Assembly (NCBI RefSeq): GCF_001548035.1
Contig: NZ_AP014723.1
Coordinates: forward strand, 1,736,001 to 1,800,000
Origin: Sulfurospirillum sp. UCH001
GTDB lineage: Bacteria; Campylobacterota; Campylobacteria; Campylobacterales; Sulfurospirillaceae
DNA length: 64,000 nt
Reading direction: 5' to 3'
Positions 10,808-26,027 of the stretch are shown here, in pieces. The position numbers and the translations under genes were made by a program. The notes beneath the pieces were generated by a model that did not search any database, was not told the origin of the DNA, and saw only the letters and a list, made by a program, of their open reading frames with translations. Numbering within the stretch: the stretch's first letter is position 1; each line of letters opens with the position of its first letter.

Positions 10808-11058
10808 GCCACTACCGCCATATGAGCAACTAGCTTATAGTGGTTTCCAACTTTTCCACTCTCTAAGATCATTTTTGAGTCTATAAGCTCTTTAACTCTT
10901 GGAGTGACTACGTTGATAGGAATATCTGTATTGTCTGCTATATCTTGACGTGTACAGTTTGGATGATCTACGATGTAGTTGTAAACTTTAAATCGTTTGT
11001 GTTGTGCGCTACCGCTTGCGTATGTGTTGCAGTAAGCTATAAGTGAAGTATCTCGCAT
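10804..11058 (-). CDS. Winged helix-turn-helix DNA-binding protein
   Basis: 84 residues from the ATG with first base 11058 (MRDTSLIAYCNTYASGSAQ). This start has an AAAAAAGG ribosome site; an upstream in-frame start would add 24 residues through structured leader sequence and is less likely. The segment FKVYNYIVDHPNCTRQDIAD then NTDIPINVVTPRVKELID is a clear MarR/IclR-style winged helix. It may regulate the leftward operon or be part of replication initiation. The leader upstream forms several stem-loops, one ending 14 bases before the start codon, so its translation may be controlled. Confidence 0.7.
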   Translation of the reverse strand: MRDTSLIAYCNTYASGSAQHKRFKVYNYIVDHPNCTRQDIADNTDIPINVVTPRVKELIDSKMILESGKVGNHYKLVAHMAVVA

Positions 11059-11856: not shown

Positions 11857-12513
11857 ATGACATTAAAAGAAAAGCTTAGATTCTTACTTGATGGATACGG
11901 CAGAGGTGGAAAGGCTAAACTGGCTGAGTATTTAGAGGTAAGTCCAAACTATATTACTCGCTATGCAGAAGAACAGTATAATGATACATTTTTACCTTCA
12001 AAGTATTTCAAAAAAACGGCTGATTTTTTTGGTGTAGAACCCACATATTTTTTAGATGATGAAATTACGACAAAGCCTGTTAGAACTGTTAAAGTTATTG
12101 GAACTGCATCATGTGGTGGTTTAGATTTAAACCATTTTCAATGTAATAGATTTGCATTATTTAATGGAGATGACTATAACGAAAGATACTATTGTGTAAT
12201 TGCAAATGGAGATAGTATGTCTCCAGAGATTGATGATGGTGACGAAGTAATATGTGATCCGCAGGCAGAAATTATTAATGGTGATATGGTTCATTACACA
12301 ATAGGAAATGAAAGCGCTTTAAAGGTGTATTTTAAAGATGAAGATGCATATATAGTTCAATTTGTACCTTATAACCCTAGTGATACGTTTAAAACTAGAA
12401 CTGTTAGATTAGATGACGATTCAGTAGAGATAAAAATGGCTAAGGTAATATCCGTAAATAAAAGAAAGACAAATAATAGATTGGCAAGATTAAAACTTAT
12501 AGGGAGAGCGTAA
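11857..12513 (+). CDS. Phage CI-like repressor (HTH plus S24 peptidase)
   Basis: 218 residues. The N-terminal helix-turn-helix covers about residues 15-38 (GGKAKLAEYLEVSPNYITRY). The C-terminal LexA-like S24 domain has nucleophile Ser120 in GDSMSP and general-base Lys156 in ESALKVY. The cleavage site is probably TASCGG, Cys86-Gly87, in place of the usual Ala-Gly. It should dimerise on the 17-bp palindromes around it and be cleaved upon RecA activation, inducing the phage. An AAAGGA ribosome site precedes the ATG. It heads the lysogeny operon. Confidence 0.93.
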   Translation: MTLKEKLRFLLDGYGRGGKAKLAEYLEVSPNYITRYAEEQYNDTFLPSKYFKKTADFFGVEPTYFLDDEITTKPVRTVKVIGTASCGGLDLNHFQCNRFALFNGDDYNERYYCVIANGDSMSPEIDDGDEVICDPQAEIINGDMVHYTIGNESALKVYFKDEDAYIVQFVPYNPSDTFKTRTVRLDDDSVEIKMAKVISVNKRKTNNRLARLKLIGRA

Positions 12514-13071: not shown

Positions 13072-13561
13072 ACTAGCCATACTCTCGCTCATATCCACGC
13101 TATCTTTTGCCACCGAAGCAATCGTAACAAAGATAGTGGATGGCGATACTATCCACGTTAAAATGAACGGAAAAGAAGAAAAAATCCGTATTCTCTACAT
13201 CGATACACCTGAAAAGTACGGTGGATCTAAACTAGAAAAAGATGCAAAGAAAGCAGGAATATCAGCCGAAAAAGAACAAGAGCTAGGAAAGCTATCAAGC
13301 GGTTACGCTGCGAAGTTCTTCCAAAAAGGCGATAAAGTAAACGTCATATCGGATAAAAAAGATCAATACGGCCGTATGCTTGGAACAGTAAGCAAAAATA
13401 GTGTTGACTATTCAACTCAGATCATCAAAGATGGTTACTCCTGCATCTATAAAAAGGAGAAATACCCTAAAGAGCTTGATAATGTACTCCAAGAAGCTAA
13501 AGAGTCAAAAAAAGGGTTATGGAGCGTTGATTTTGAGGTTATGAATAGGTTGTGTAGGTAA
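13064..13561 (+). CDS. Secreted thermonuclease (SNase-like)
   Basis: 165 residues from the ATG at 13064, which gives a clean signal peptide (MHKLAILSLISTLSFA). A longer upstream frame would ruin it. The staphylococcal nuclease fold is clear. VDGDT (25-29) and IDT (46-48) carry the metal ligands; Arg42, Glu50 and Arg104 (in QYGRMLG) match the catalytic Arg-Glu-Arg. All are present, so it should be active and exported. It overlaps the upstream SHOCT gene by 8 bases. Made in lysogens, it could destroy DNA entering the periplasm, from phages or by transformation. Confidence 0.9.
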   Translation: MHKLAILSLISTLSFATEAIVTKIVDGDTIHVKMNGKEEKIRILYIDTPEKYGGSKLEKDAKKAGISAEKEQELGKLSSGYAAKFFQKGDKVNVISDKKDQYGRMLGTVSKNSVDYSTQIIKDGYSCIYKKEKYPKELDNVLQEAKESKKGLWSVDFEVMNRLCR

Positions 13562-14783: not shown

Positions 14784-14800
14784 ATTACAGTAACTGTATC
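14784..14800. promoter_or_regulatory. Repressor operator O4
   Basis: ATTACAGTAACTGTATC shares 15 of 17 bases with O1. It sits over the -35 region of the leftward promoter of the 47-codon gene, 3 kb from the repressor-proximal operators. Confidence 0.8.
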
Positions 14801-14818: not shown

Positions 14819-14835
14819 ATTACAGTTACTGTAAC
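14819..14835. promoter_or_regulatory. Repressor operator O5
   Basis: ATTACAGTTACTGTAAC is the O1 palindrome read from the other strand, with one change at the last base. Its centre is 35 bp from that of O4, the same spacing as O1-O2. A rightward -10-like TCTAAT follows at 14838-14843, so it probably controls the recombination operon. Confidence 0.8.
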
Positions 14836-15041
14836 ATTCTAATCAGCGAAACAAAAAAGCTAGTCCAACCACTTGGAAGCGATAGGACTTAAAAATAAAA
14901 TGCGCCAAATGAGTGAAAGCAGATTGAAAAGGGTCTGCGCCATACATGCCCACTTCGCTTATGTGGGGTTGTAGATGATAAGCGATTTATAAAGCCTATT
15001 TAGTCCGACCGTAGGCTTTATAAAGTTTAAAAGGAGAGACG
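14836..15041 (+). promoter_or_regulatory. Structured 5' leader of the rightward early operon
   Basis: 206 bases between operator O5 and the first gene hold at least four stems. They are AGTCC (14862) with GGACT (14885), a GCAGA/TCTGC hairpin, CCCAC (14949) with GTGGG (14963), and a 13-bp perfect inverted repeat TTTATAAAGCCTA (14986-14998) / TAGGCTTTATAAA (15012-15024). The loop of the last exposes AGTCCGACC (15002-15010); AGTCCAACCA at 14862 is a near match. The arrangement suggests attenuation or protein/RNA control of the operon. Confidence 0.55.
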
Positions 15042-15194: not shown

Positions 15195-15436
15195 GAGATG
15201 GCGTAAAGGCACAAGTAGATCAAGCAGTAGAATCTGGTTATCTAAGAGGTGACGAGCTAGAAAGTGTTAAAGAAAATTTATTTCACAACGACGAAGTAAA
15301 AATATTGATCATCCCAAAAGGAACGACTATTAAAATAAATGGTATCCCCTTTACATTAAAAGAGGATACGGAGGTTTATGGGTTAGTGTCTAATTTAGAG
15401 TTGGCATTCAGAGAGCATGAGGTTAGTTCATCCTAA
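15191..15436 (+). CDS. Hypothetical early phage protein (81 aa)
   Basis: 81 residues. The N terminus is acidic and helical (GVKAQVDQAVESGYLRGDEL). The C-terminal half is beta-rich (VKILIIPKGTTIKINGIPFT). No family is recognised. The start is coupled to the 50-codon gene upstream. Its 3' end overlaps the opposite-strand Cas2-like gene by 9 bases. Confidence 0.55.
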   Translation: MRDGVKAQVDQAVESGYLRGDELESVKENLFHNDEVKILIIPKGTTIKINGIPFTLKEDTEVYGLVSNLELAFREHEVSSS

Positions 15437-15730
15437 ATGCTTTCCTAGCCAAGTAGCACAATCACCTTTAAAACCTTGCCAATGATAAGATTTATTAGTT
15501 ATGTCTACTACTAAAATTACATCATTGCTATCAATAGCTGTTTGAAGATGGTCTCTTGCTTGTTGTGTATTATATTTAGATTTTATTATCCAAGTAGAAT
15601 CTGCACAATGCCAAGTAGAACCATCACTTAATCCACGTATACGGTCGTATAAACCAGAGTAGTTTTGCCCTTTATCTTTACCAACAGCACCACCTTTATT
15701 CAAATCATACGTAATCAACAAAGCATTCAT
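15428..15730 (-). CDS. SinR-family Cas2-like fold protein
   Basis: 100 residues from the ATG at 15730, which has AAGGAG upstream; a longer frame exists without support. MNALLITYDLNKGG, then YSGLYDRIRGLSDG, STWHCADSTWIIKS and SNDVILVVDIT follow the small ferredoxin-like family annotated 'SinR family'. Those proteins resemble Cas2/VapD-type folds. It is the only leftward gene inside a rightward operon and has its own promoter. That is typical of a moron or cargo gene expressed in the lysogen. Nuclease activity is not established; no cas1 is present. Confidence 0.7.
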   Translation of the reverse strand: MNALLITYDLNKGGAVGKDKGQNYSGLYDRIRGLSDGSTWHCADSTWIIKSKYNTQQARDHLQTAIDSNDVILVVDITNKSYHWQGFKGDCATWLGKHLG

Positions 15731-15769
15731 TCTAAAAACTCCTTGTGTGTATTTTGTATAGGCAAAACC

Positions 15770-15775
15770 ATTATA
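15770..15775 (-). promoter_or_regulatory. -10 element for the SinR-like gene
   Basis: Minus-strand TATAAT (GGTATAATGG), with TTCACT 17 bases upstream as a -35-like hexamer. It lies about 40 bases before the ATG at 15730. No phage operator overlaps it, so the gene is probably expressed in the lysogen. Confidence 0.65.
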
Positions 15776-15806
15776 CCACGAGGAGCTTCTAGAGTGAAAA
15801 CTCAAT

Positions 15807-15880
15807 AAAACACACTATGAATACAGCGCAGACACTGATCATCGGTCACTAGGCATAACGGGGTGACGGTAGTGTGTTTT
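15807..15880. ncRNA. Stem-bounded element A (74 nt)
   Basis: Ends form a perfect 11-bp stem, AAAACACACTA with TAGTGTGTTTT. An inner GTCAC (15845) / GTGAC (15863) stem lies inside. It is the first of three elements of 73-74 nt with 86-nt start-to-start spacing. It is not a tRNA (no TPsiC loop). Confidence 0.5.
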
Positions 15881-15892
15881 AACCTTCCACTG

Positions 15893-15966
15893 AGAACATG
15901 ACACATTCAACAACAATATATTAAGTAGTGTTTATTTGATGAAAACAATGGTTTTGTGCGTGTTCT
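15893..15966. ncRNA. Stem-bounded element B (74 nt)
   Basis: Ends form a 12-bp stem with one bulged A and one G-T pair (15893-15905 with 15955-15966). It shares CATTCAACAA (15904-15913) and GGTTTTG (15950-15956) with element C. Confidence 0.5.
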
Positions 15967-15978
15967 GATAGAGGGTTT

Positions 15979-16051
15979 ATTTGATGGCATTAAGCATTCA
16001 ACAATAGCACATGTTAATTCGAGAAAAAAGGTTTTGCACGTGCCATCAAGT
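15979..16051. ncRNA. Stem-bounded element C (73 nt)
   Basis: Ends form an 11-bp stem (15979-15989 with 16041-16051), perfect over TTGATGGCA/TGCCATCAA. It contains CATTCAACAA (15995-16004) and GGTTTTG (16030-16036) as in element B, which points to a duplicated origin. Confidence 0.5.
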
Positions 16052-16060
16052 TTTTAAATG

Positions 16061-16176
16061 GTGAGTAGTCAAGTGGACAAAGGACGTAAGGGTGCAGTCC
16101 AGCGTAGCAAATAAAAACCCAAGTCGAGTGTCGTAATGCGCCAGCAAAGCCAAAAGGCAATGGGCTACTCACTTTT
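16061..16176 (+). ncRNA. Stem-bounded element D (112 nt) with T-run
   Basis: GTGAGTAGTC (16061-16070) pairs with the 10 bases 16163-16172, one of them G-T. Inner stems include GGAC (16082) / GTCC (16097) and GCC/GGC around 16148-16157. TTTTT follows the outer stem, so this could end an RNA transcript covering A-D. No gene is seen in 15806-16204 other than these structures. Confidence 0.45.
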
Positions 16177-16192
16177 TAAGAACTTACACAAA

Positions 16193-16207
16193 GGAGTCCG
16201 ACCAATG
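16193..16207 (+). promoter_or_regulatory. Ribosome site with the AGTCCGACC motif (copy 1)
   Basis: AAAGGAGTCCGACCAATG joins the Shine-Dalgarno, the recurrent 9-mer and the start codon. The identical 18 bases precede the gene at 24737. The element could be blocked by the antisense loop at 11191-11202. Confidence 0.55.
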
Positions 16208-16321
16208 AGTACACAAAGAATTTTAAAAACTAGAGCATGGGTTATGCGTTTCAACAAATTTAAGAAACAAACAACAAGACACACTATTTTAGTGTTAATG
16301 ACTATGGGGGGTTTAGCATGA
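16205..16321 (+). CDS. 38-residue basic peptide
   Basis: The frame starts MSTQRILKTRAWVMRFNKFK after the AAAGGAGTCCGACCA site. An in-frame ATG at 16136 lies within element D and has no ribosome site, so the shorter form is chosen. It is Arg/Lys-rich with a hydrophobic end (TILVLMTMGGLA). The stop overlaps the next ATG. Unknown function. Confidence 0.5.
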   Translation: MSTQRILKTRAWVMRFNKFKKQTTRHTILVLMTMGGLA

Positions 16322-20848: not shown

Positions 20849-20971
20849 ATGGAATACCTAACACTATTTTCCATCGCTTTCATTCTATGCCTCATTCCTT
20901 TTGTAGGTGGTAAGCCAAAGAAGAAAGGCTCTATTGACCCGATAAAAAGCGTGAAAGGGTTGAAGTTATGA
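20849..20971 (+). CDS. 40-residue membrane peptide
   Basis: The frame MEYLTLFSIAFILCLIPFVG then a basic tail (KPKKKGS) starts two bases after the methyltransferase stop, with AGGAG at 20837-20841. Its TGA overlaps the next ATG. It has one membrane span. Function unknown. Confidence 0.5.
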   Translation: MEYLTLFSIAFILCLIPFVGGKPKKKGSIDPIKSVKGLKL

Positions 20972-21771
20972 AATACATAGCAACAATAAGCGGAGGTAAG
21001 GACAGCGTAACAATGTGTGACTTGCTTTTAAAGAATGGGTATCCAGTTGATTACATCATTTTTCAAGACACGCTAATGGAATTCGATTTGATGTATCACT
21101 ATATTGAAAAATTAAAAAGTTACTTTAAAAATAGATATAAAAAAGAAATTATCGTTACTAAACCTAGAACCACTTTTGAGCATTGGTGTTATGGTGTTAT
21201 AAATGATAAAACTTCTAAATTTGATGGATGCATAAGAGGTATCCCAATGGTTTGGTCTGAGCCTTGTTATTGGAGAAGAGAGGCAAAAGTAAAACCATCA
21301 GAAGAGTTAATAGAAAGCCTTATAGGCTGTTATGGTGAACGTAAAATTTATATTGGTTATACACTTGATGAGAGAACCAGAATACAAAAAGATGAAAAAC
21401 TCCTATATCCACTTATAACAGAATTTAAAATGACTGAACGTGACTGCAAGCATTATTTAATTAATGAAGAAATGGAAAATCCTCTTTATAAATTTTTTAA
21501 CAGAACTGGTTGCGGTATGTGCCCAGGGCAAAGTGAAAAAGCTTGGTATCAAGTATGGAAGAATTTTAAAGACATGTGGACTTATATGGTATTAGTTGAA
21601 AATAGATTAGATCAGCTTGAAAAAAGTGGTATTGGCATTAAAAACAAATATTGGTTCACAAAGTTTAGAACGTGTGCTGACATGGAAAAACTATTCAAAA
21701 AGATGGAAAAGCAAGGAAGCTTATTTGAACTATCAGATGAGCCACTAAAAGACTGCTTTTGCAAGATTTGA
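20968..21771 (+). CDS. PAPS reductase-family (PP-loop) phage protein
   Basis: 267 residues. The PP-loop SGGKDS (8-13) near the N terminus and a Cys cluster (GCGMCPG around 190, CFCKI at the C terminus) place it in the PAPS reductase / adenine-nucleotide alpha-hydrolase group common in phages. The enzymes activate substrates with ATP. Here no sulfate-assimilation neighbour exists, so a role in nucleotide or DNA/RNA modification is more likely. It is flanked by two methyltransferases. It is too short and different for full DndC. Confidence 0.8.
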   Translation: MKYIATISGGKDSVTMCDLLLKNGYPVDYIIFQDTLMEFDLMYHYIEKLKSYFKNRYKKEIIVTKPRTTFEHWCYGVINDKTSKFDGCIRGIPMVWSEPCYWRREAKVKPSEELIESLIGCYGERKIYIGYTLDERTRIQKDEKLLYPLITEFKMTERDCKHYLINEEMENPLYKFFNRTGCGMCPGQSEKAWYQVWKNFKDMWTYMVLVENRLDQLEKSGIGIKNKYWFTKFRTCADMEKLFKKMEKQGSLFELSDEPLKDCFCKI

Positions 21772-24739: not shown

Positions 24740-25021
24740 TTGACAATAGAAGTAGATGCTAAAACAATAGCTAAACAAGTAGCTGTTGAAGTTGTAAAAA
24801 TGATGCAACTAGAAATCAAAAGACAAATATATCCTTTTCAAATAAAAGGAGATGCAAACGCTGGCTCTATGATTGGAGTAACTGGAGAAGCTATGAAGCA
24901 AAGGAGACATAATGGATTTTATAGAGATGGTTATCATTTTGATAAAAAATCCGATAAAATTATCATGTGGAATAGAGATGCCTTGCTAGAGGAGTCGCTA
25001 AATGATAAAAGTTTGCACTAG
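24737..25021 (+). CDS. Hypothetical protein preceding the integrase (94 aa)
   Basis: 94 residues, MLTIEVDAKTIAKQVAVEVV and onward, with an N-terminal helical part and a polar C terminus. It overlaps the integrase start by 20 bases and is thus made from the same message. The position suits an excisionase or integration regulator, but no helix-turn-helix is evident. Confidence 0.55.
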   Translation: MLTIEVDAKTIAKQVAVEVVKMMQLEIKRQIYPFQIKGDANAGSMIGVTGEAMKQRRHNGFYRDGYHFDKKSDKIIMWNRDALLEESLNDKSLH

Positions 25022-26027
25022 AAAAAGCAAGGATGGAAATCGACTTTATGTCGAATATTATGAAGGTGGAGAAAGAGTGCGTAAATCACTCAATCTCTTA
25101 GAAACAAAAGCTAATATCGCATATGTTAATAGAAATATTATACCTGAAATCGAACGAAAACTAAAGTATGGTTTACGATTTGATGACTATAAAATATCAG
25201 AATTTACATGTAAGGTATTAGAGCAGACAAAGAAAAAAAGAAAGTTAAATACTTACGAGACATATGAGTCTGCTATTCGTAAGTTTTTTAGCATAATGGG
25301 CGATGTAAGCGTTAATAAGCTAAGAACTAAAGACATAGATAGATATGTTGAACTCTTAGAAAAACAAGGCATGTCAAGCGCAACTATTACAATGTACTTA
25401 GCTCCAATAAGCTTAGCGTGTAAGGAAGCAATACGAATAGATGTTATTGACAAAAATCCAGTTACTTATGCGCTTAAGCCACCAGTAAAAAATAAAGAGA
25501 AGAAAGTATTTAACCTTATGCAAATGCACAATTTGTTAAACAATGCAGAAGGTGAATTAAAAACATTTCTTTATTTTGCATTTTTTACTGGAGCAAGACC
25601 AAATGAAGTCTTAGCTTTAAGATGGGAAGATATAAAAGAGGAATGTATCAACATTAGAAGAACTAGGGTACAGAGAAAACAAGAGAATTTACCAAAAGGT
25701 GGAAAAGAGAGACAAATAACCCTCTTGAAACCTTTAAAAGATTTTATTTCAAAAATAGAAAACAAAAATGGTAAAGTTTTTAAAAGTTCTTACTCTCGAA
25801 TATCATATCATTTTTACAGGCTTCAAAAAGAAGTAGGATATGAAAGAAGGGTTATGCATACAATAAGGCATACATTCGCTAGTTTGCTACTACAAGCTAG
25901 AGAAAACCCAACTCTAATACAATACTTTTTAGGTCATGCATCTCTCAAAATGTTAAATAATGTTTATGCGCACTATATCGAAGATGAAAAAGATACTGAA
26001 CGCATAGAAAAAATATTTGCATTGTAG
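25002..26027 (+). CDS. Phage tyrosine integrase
   Basis: 341 residues. The N-terminal AP2-like arm-binding part precedes a core-binding SAM-like domain (about 60-160). The catalytic domain has Arg199 (TGARPNEVLALRW), His286 and Arg289 (HTIRHTFAS), His312 (GHAS) and nucleophile Tyr322 (NNVYAHY). All residues are present. AGGAG lies seven bases before the ATG. It is the last phage gene, next to the attachment region. It catalyses integration and, with an excisionase, excision. Confidence 0.95.
   Translation: MIKVCTRKSKDGNRLYVEYYEGGERVRKSLNLLETKANIAYVNRNIIPEIERKLKYGLRFDDYKISEFTCKVLEQTKKKRKLNTYETYESAIRKFFSIMGDVSVNKLRTKDIDRYVELLEKQGMSSATITMYLAPISLACKEAIRIDVIDKNPVTYALKPPVKNKEKKVFNLMQMHNLLNNAEGELKTFLYFAFFTGARPNEVLALRWEDIKEECINIRRTRVQRKQENLPKGGKERQITLLKPLKDFISKIENKNGKVFKSSYSRISYHFYRLQKEVGYERRVMHTIRHTFASLLLQARENPTLIQYFLGHASLKMLNNVYAHYIEDEKDTERIEKIFAL

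Follow-up and report, generated by a model that had tools for sequence, protein, structure and literature searches.

The window, that is, the whole 64-kb stretch of DNA that was analysed, lies within a closed 2.6-Mb genome of the Campylobacterota, and the array of structured elements described here is, as judged from the sequence, carried by a prophage, the same one being present in IMG/VR as L008/L010. A CI-like repressor gene (11857-12513) lies upstream of the RNA tract, and the early genes that come after the tract encode an Erf-like annealing protein, a RecE/YqaJ-like exonuclease, an SSB and methyltransferases. The phage early operon also encodes a PAPS-reductase-family protein (20968-21771), which matches the models of SspD (DNA phosphorothioation) and BrxP and is possibly the product of a DNA-modification gene of the phage. 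After an integrase-like ORF (25002-26027), the genes read like those of the host. Just 5' of the RNA tract, two palindromes of the form TTACAGT(A/T)ACTGTA(A) can be read from the sequence at 14785-14798 and 14820-14834; they are operator-like and are considered candidate operators. No toxin or reverse-transcriptase gene, of the kind found in type III toxin–antitoxin systems or retrons, was detected by PADLOC beside the array among eight early-region proteins, whose only matches were to a methyltransferase and to SspD/BrxP, and the Pfam and PHROGs searches gave the same picture.

Two elements of the tract stand apart from the main array. Element F (14858-14940, plus strand) comprises a hairpin AGUCC(17 nt)GGACU, a linker with AAUGCGCCA, and a second hairpin, GCAGAU/GUCUGC, at 14919-14938. 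Its conservation rests on one homologue, in the prophage of genome G022 (L012, minus strand, 10940-11040), with which it shares the motif AGTCCNACCNNTTGNAAGCGNNAGGACT and a AATGCGCC-like linker; as read from the alignment, the second hairpin is GUAAGC/GCUUAU there, with a similar loop. Folding of the single F sequences gave no significance (z -0.8 and -1.6). Element E (14986-15024, plus strand) is a 14-bp hairpin, UUUAUAAAGCCUA...UAGGCUUUAUAAA, with a folding z of -4.9. Between E and the array proper lies a minus-strand phrog_1090 gene of 100 aa (15428..15730), which is missing at the corresponding place in a related phage known from two contigs (L009/L011), where the E hairpin directly abuts the first array element. 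The gene is thus an insertion between the two and probably stands outside the RNA system. An imperfect inverted repeat (15726-15798, -13 kcal/mol) spans the start of this gene and encloses its TATAAT and a Shine-Dalgarno-like AAGGAG.

The array itself consists of four plus-strand elements, A to D. The closing stem of A (15806-15881) is formed by 12 perfect Watson–Crick pairs between 15806-15817 and 15870-15881; it surrounds the inner hairpins CAG/CUG and GUCAC/GUGAC, and UUUU follows. B (15893-15966) is closed by 8 pairs (one of them G-U), a bulged A and three further pairs, CAC/GUG, and contains a core, AUUCAACAA...GGUUUUG, in common with C (15979-16051), whose terminal stem has 11 pairs, 9 of them Watson–Crick and the outermost and innermost G-U. 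Direct repeats of 22 nt and 17 nt with 77-82% identity link B to C, and the two are paralogues. D (16060-16172) has a terminal stem GGUGAGUAG(U)C/(G)GGCUACUCACU of 10-11 pairs, a core CGUAAUGCGYCAG...AAUGGG, a hairpin tip GUA..UAC, and T5 at 16173-16177. U-runs are found directly 3' of A, C and D. A sequence-only reading of this region had placed A, B and C within 1-2 nt of these positions, and it was right about the sequence shared by B and C and about a fourth element with a 10-bp stem and T5. The terminal stems of 11-12 bp that it described agree with A and C; that of B is interrupted, with 8 + 3 pairs.

Single stems of this kind are not rare, since ten perfect stems with 10 bp or more and comparable spans are present in the 64-kb window. 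When stem-closed elements were chained over 15700-16300, the summed stem energy was -86.6 kcal/mol, a value that includes a fifth stem (15726-15798) not counted as a member of the array; none of 150 dinucleotide shuffles equalled it, the best reaching -71.3, and by stacking energy the tiles over the array were the best among all 600-nt tiles on both strands of the window. Chains of at least four weak stems were common, appearing in 49 of the 150 shuffles. The unusual feature of the chain is its energy and not the number of its stems. Compared with dinucleotide shuffles, the minimum free energy (MFE) of the individual elements on the plus strand gave z of -2.4 for A, -1.4 for B, -1.1 for C and -3.6 for D. 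For all four, the MFE is lower on the plus than on the minus strand (for A by just 0.3 kcal/mol), which, together with the use of G-U pairs in the stems, fits RNA over DNA.

None of the elements A-D, E or F belongs to a family that Rfam 15 recognizes in the window at its curated gathering cut-off, the best sub-threshold matches in 15700-16300 being microRNA models with E about 1. Three further viral loci with homologues of the array emerged when 150 related genomes were searched at the DNA level and IMG/VR was scanned with patterns. The contigs L009/L011 carry E-A-B-C-D*, near-identical to the window apart from the interior of D. The G022 prophage carries A'-X-Y-C' within an operon, the array starting where an SSB-like gene ends with its stop codon; genes for a terminase, a portal protein and a CI-like repressor are found on the same contig. 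The third, L067, belongs to a phage whose exonuclease is 69% identical to that of the window phage, and consists of a tRNA without anticodon arm, a module Z with a 13-bp stem, and D''. The D homologues of L009/L011 and L067 (z -4.8 for the latter) differ in hairpin sequence. The order of modules is therefore A-B-C-D in the window, A-B-C-D* in L011, A'-X-Y-C' in G022 and armless tRNA-Z-D'' in L067, and modules are gained, lost and swapped between phages. The 86-nt period noted in the sequence-only reading is present in the window and in L009/L011 and absent from G022 and L067, where the spacers range from ~4 to 35 nt; such periodicity does not characterize the system as a whole.

Beyond these loci, no further homologue was found among 399 genomes of the order, so the RNA families are narrow, and GenBank phages and plasmids gave no credible match. 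Several candidates were rejected. Weak B/C covariance-model matches in the order (the best, in G352, at 36 bits) fall in or across coding genes in G352, G084 and G251, and weak D matches in G123 and G028 are situated within coding genes or do not include the core. The DNA matches of G018 and G025 are due to chance, inside coding sequence resembling hydrogenase and molybdopterin oxidoreductase, and one in G055 is ambiguous. The B/C pattern scan of GTDB species returned 14 stretches, among which, judged by organism, G022 alone is credible, and the hits of the D pattern in L063-L066, L068 and L069 and of the A pattern in L060-L062 are attributed to chance, the element not being conserved. The examined stretch of another phage, L075, with an exonuclease 68% identical, contains no array.

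The homologues allow the stems to be compared. B, C and C' can be aligned as a single family around the invariant core and a short inner stem, and their closing stems read GAACAUG/CGUGUUC in B, GAUGGCA/UGCCAUC in C and GAUAACACC/GGUGUUAUC in C'; four pairs are altered on both sides, and 97.7% of the cells are paired, versus 29-51% in slid controls. A 20-bit B/C match at L012 10813-10887 that overlaps a gene start was excluded, and the counts of alignment A8, which contains it, are not used. Between A and A', two stem pairs are altered on both sides and the loops are nearly constant, as read from the alignment. The D homologues keep the core and the GUA..UAC tip, and vary in the other hairpin parts and the outer closing stem; their covariation was not significant in its own shuffle control. 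As B/C and D are each represented by three distinct sequences (a paralogous pair among those of B/C) and A by two, the counts of compensatory changes are good, not overwhelming. Selection on structure, for which the sequence-only reading had looked to compensatory substitutions in the terminal stems among homologues, is supported by these changes, more weakly for D. Another possibility is that the inverted repeats act as DNA, be it as replication, recombination or packaging sites or as protein-binding cruciforms. Recombination genes do adjoin the array, and such sites commonly have inverted repeats; the kept stems contain G-U pairs, the internal hairpins are constant, the MFE of A-D is lower on one strand and the sister arrays have tRNA-like members, all of which makes this explanation improbable. 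Packaging signals in particular, one of the roles offered at the outset, are not favoured, given that the early recombination region is where the array is found and that its flanking genes differ between phages.

The sister arrays change the picture with regard to tRNA. A-D lack a D, T or anticodon arm, ARAGORN calls no tRNA gene among them and Rfam gives no tRNA match, as expected from the earlier statement that they lack tRNA features; that statement does not extend to the type of array, which has tRNA-like modules in L067 and G022. Module Y of G022 (L003, minus strand, 1293-1384) is tRNA-Ser-like and scores 18.6 bits, below the tRNA model cut-off of 29; its arms are a D arm, an anticodon arm AUGAG-UUCGAUU-CUCAU and a T arm GUCGG-UUCGAGU-CCGAC, and its variable region contains a 37-nt insert. 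The first element of L067 reaches 40.4 bits with the Rfam tRNA model (RF00005), above the cut-off of 29, and has 3 nt in place of the 18-nt anticodon arm. With these two elements the system includes tRNA mimics, even if A-D themselves bear no likeness to tRNA, and the earlier suggestion of phage regulatory RNAs, sponges or tRNA mimics is strengthened, given such modules in the sister arrays. The same members, and the tRNA-sized spacing of 74 + 12 nt, would also suit a decaying phage tRNA cluster whose functionless members have lost their tRNA features. Decay would not be expected to leave unpaired cores invariant between paralogues and between phages, and compensatory change has preserved the stems, which exceed an acceptor stem in length, so that this origin is quite improbable.

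The arm-less element of L067 (minus strand, 1353-1411) has counterparts in other viral contigs. A pattern scan of IMG/VR for D and T arms 4-14 nt apart returned 64 contigs (L164-L226 and L067) with tRNA-like elements made up of acceptor, D and T arms, a lower bound, since the scan took in only tRNAs with a GCTCAG..AGAGC D arm. De-duplication left 49 distinct elements with 43 different acceptor 5' arms, in which 306 of 343 acceptor positions are paired, versus a mean of 158 (maximum 182) with shuffled 3' arms. Acceptor pairing is poor in six of the 49 (L190, L191, L193, L200, L214 and L219), which seem to represent a different class. In all, over 40 distinct anticodon-arm-less tRNA-like elements are predicted in other viral contigs. 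Nine loci (L171, L176, L188, L190, L191, L193, L200, L214 and L219) form a subgroup with AACTGGYGACRAC between the D and T arms and CCATAYGAAARTATGAGGTGTGTAGGG 3' of the T arm, and this may be another RNA class, because its acceptor arms are unpaired. In the other phages the arm-less element is solitary, with no adjoining stem-closed elements, unlike in L067. Ro60 (TROVE, PF05731) is absent from 30 genomes and records, namely the window's genome (G000), G022 and 28 virus records that are possibly fragments (L067 and L011 among them), which speaks against Y RNAs. The openly searchable literature holds no description of arm-less phage tRNA-like RNAs or of such arrays, an absence that is no proof of novelty.

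The tract is also matched by CRISPR spacers in three relatives, G015, G002 and G016. One spacer of G015 is identical to 14872-14906 (35 nt), inside element F, and two others match 12229-12260 and 13187-13218 at 94%; a spacer of G002 is identical to 14971-15000 (30 nt). In G016, a spacer-like stretch with a 29/30 match to 16024-16053, the 3' part of C, lies beside an orphan CRISPR repeat, of which 11 copies make up a nearby array. The orphan repeat (L014, 10021-10045) is ~4.4 kb from the 11-repeat array and, by eye, adjoins two ORFs, one resembling cas2 and the other a truncated cas1. It is best read as the remnant of a broken array with a spacer matching C. The tract is phage DNA under immune pressure. 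These spacers might bring to mind RNAs that imitate CRISPR RNAs or repeats and so block host CRISPR-Cas. The matches indicate phage targeting only, and no element resembles the repeats GTTTCAATCCCC..., CTCGAACCGACACAAG... and ATTATAGCAAAACCGAG... in a by-eye comparison with those of G002, G015 and G016 only, which leaves such RNA anti-CRISPRs very improbable.

The main rival explanation holds that the elements belong to the early mRNA and act in cis, for instance as antitermination sites like put of HK022, attenuators, or leader processing or stability elements, and it is unlikely, if still to be taken seriously. Where the early transcript presumably starts, F, E and A-D come after the operator-like palindromes, an RBS lies 10-30 nt 3' of the last element in all three array types, and the U-runs after A, C and D point the same way. 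A promoter-like site, TTTACA-17-TATAAT, precedes the first module of L067 by a few nt, with no intervening ORF; a promoter-proximal position is plausible there and in the window. It is not plausible in G022, where A'-X-Y-C' sits between protein genes, away from a promoter, and an array inside an operon after the SSB-like gene is awkward for a promoter-proximal cis element. An antiterminator would not be expected to have tRNA-like modules, and the enclosed loops, at 50-90 nt, exceed the size that an ordinary intrinsic terminator would have; no such terminator was called at the array.

The reading that we favour, with somewhat less than even confidence, is that of a modular array of trans-acting structured phage RNAs from an early transcript, probably protein decoys. 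Its structural side is well supported by the conserved structured elements, the compensatory stems, the modularity, the location in the early region and the tRNA-like sister members; from these we infer transcription, processing, action in trans and the decoy role. Action in trans is favoured because modules are exchanged, the position of the array varies (between genes in one phage, promoter-proximal in another), stems change in a compensatory manner around constant cores, and some members are tRNA-like. The promoter-like site just 5' of the first L067 module also fits this reading. According to this proposal, the array would be read from the plus strand within an early (lytic) transcription unit that a repressor controls, and host RNases would probably release the modules from the longer transcript as stable small RNAs that probably act in trans. 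The variable closing stem would mainly hold the module together, leaving the conserved core as the working part. Since modules are swapped and two modules of the sister arrays are tRNA-like, their most likely task would be to tie up RNA-binding proteins of the infected host, such as enzymes that handle tRNA or defence nucleases that target RNA, and a decoy role towards such proteins would be the most economical function. A wider proposal, which we regard as speculative and distinctly unlikely as a whole, is that RNA decoys acting in trans are carried by temperate phages as exchangeable cassettes, among them the widespread and apparently undescribed armless tRNA-like class, and that during infection they would occupy host tRNA-binding or RNA-targeting defence proteins.

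The RNA families A, B/C, D and F, without an Rfam match and gathered in one compact phage array, offer a concrete and testable set of RNAs. If they are decoys, RNA-based counter-defence would reach beyond CRISPR mimics, and the occurrence of the arm-less class in viral contigs from many samples raises the question of what purpose a tRNA elbow serves without an anticodon. With tRNA (RF00005) the array shares the length and the terminal stem, and in the sister arrays the D and T arms; it differs in that A-D are armless throughout, the L067 element lacks the anticodon arm and Y has its 37-nt insert. YrlA-type bacterial Y RNAs are tRNA-like partners of Ro60 known from bacteria and phages, and their tRNA-like module likewise combines D and T arms with the lack of an ordinary anticodon arm, but the arm-less elements here have free acceptor ends and no Ro60/TROVE gene accompanies them in the tested records. 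The put RNAs of HK022 are structured, cis-acting antitermination RNAs found at few sites at the start of the early transcript; they resemble the array in being structured and in its presumed placement in the window and L067, whereas the array has many exchangeable modules and in one phage lies within an operon. RNA anti-CRISPRs are likewise phage-encoded small RNAs, directed against host defence, from which the array is set apart by its lack of similarity, on inspection, to the CRISPR repeats of related hosts. Species 1 and 2 of phage T4 are stable RNAs of its tRNA cluster, of about 100 nt; like the array, they are phage-encoded structured RNAs clustered with tRNA-like genes, and unlike them the array comprises several module families that are swapped between phages in the early region of temperate phages. 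Small structured phage RNAs with tRNA-like members therefore have a precedent in T4, and the modular array with an arm-less tRNA member is, as far as the searches done can show, new.
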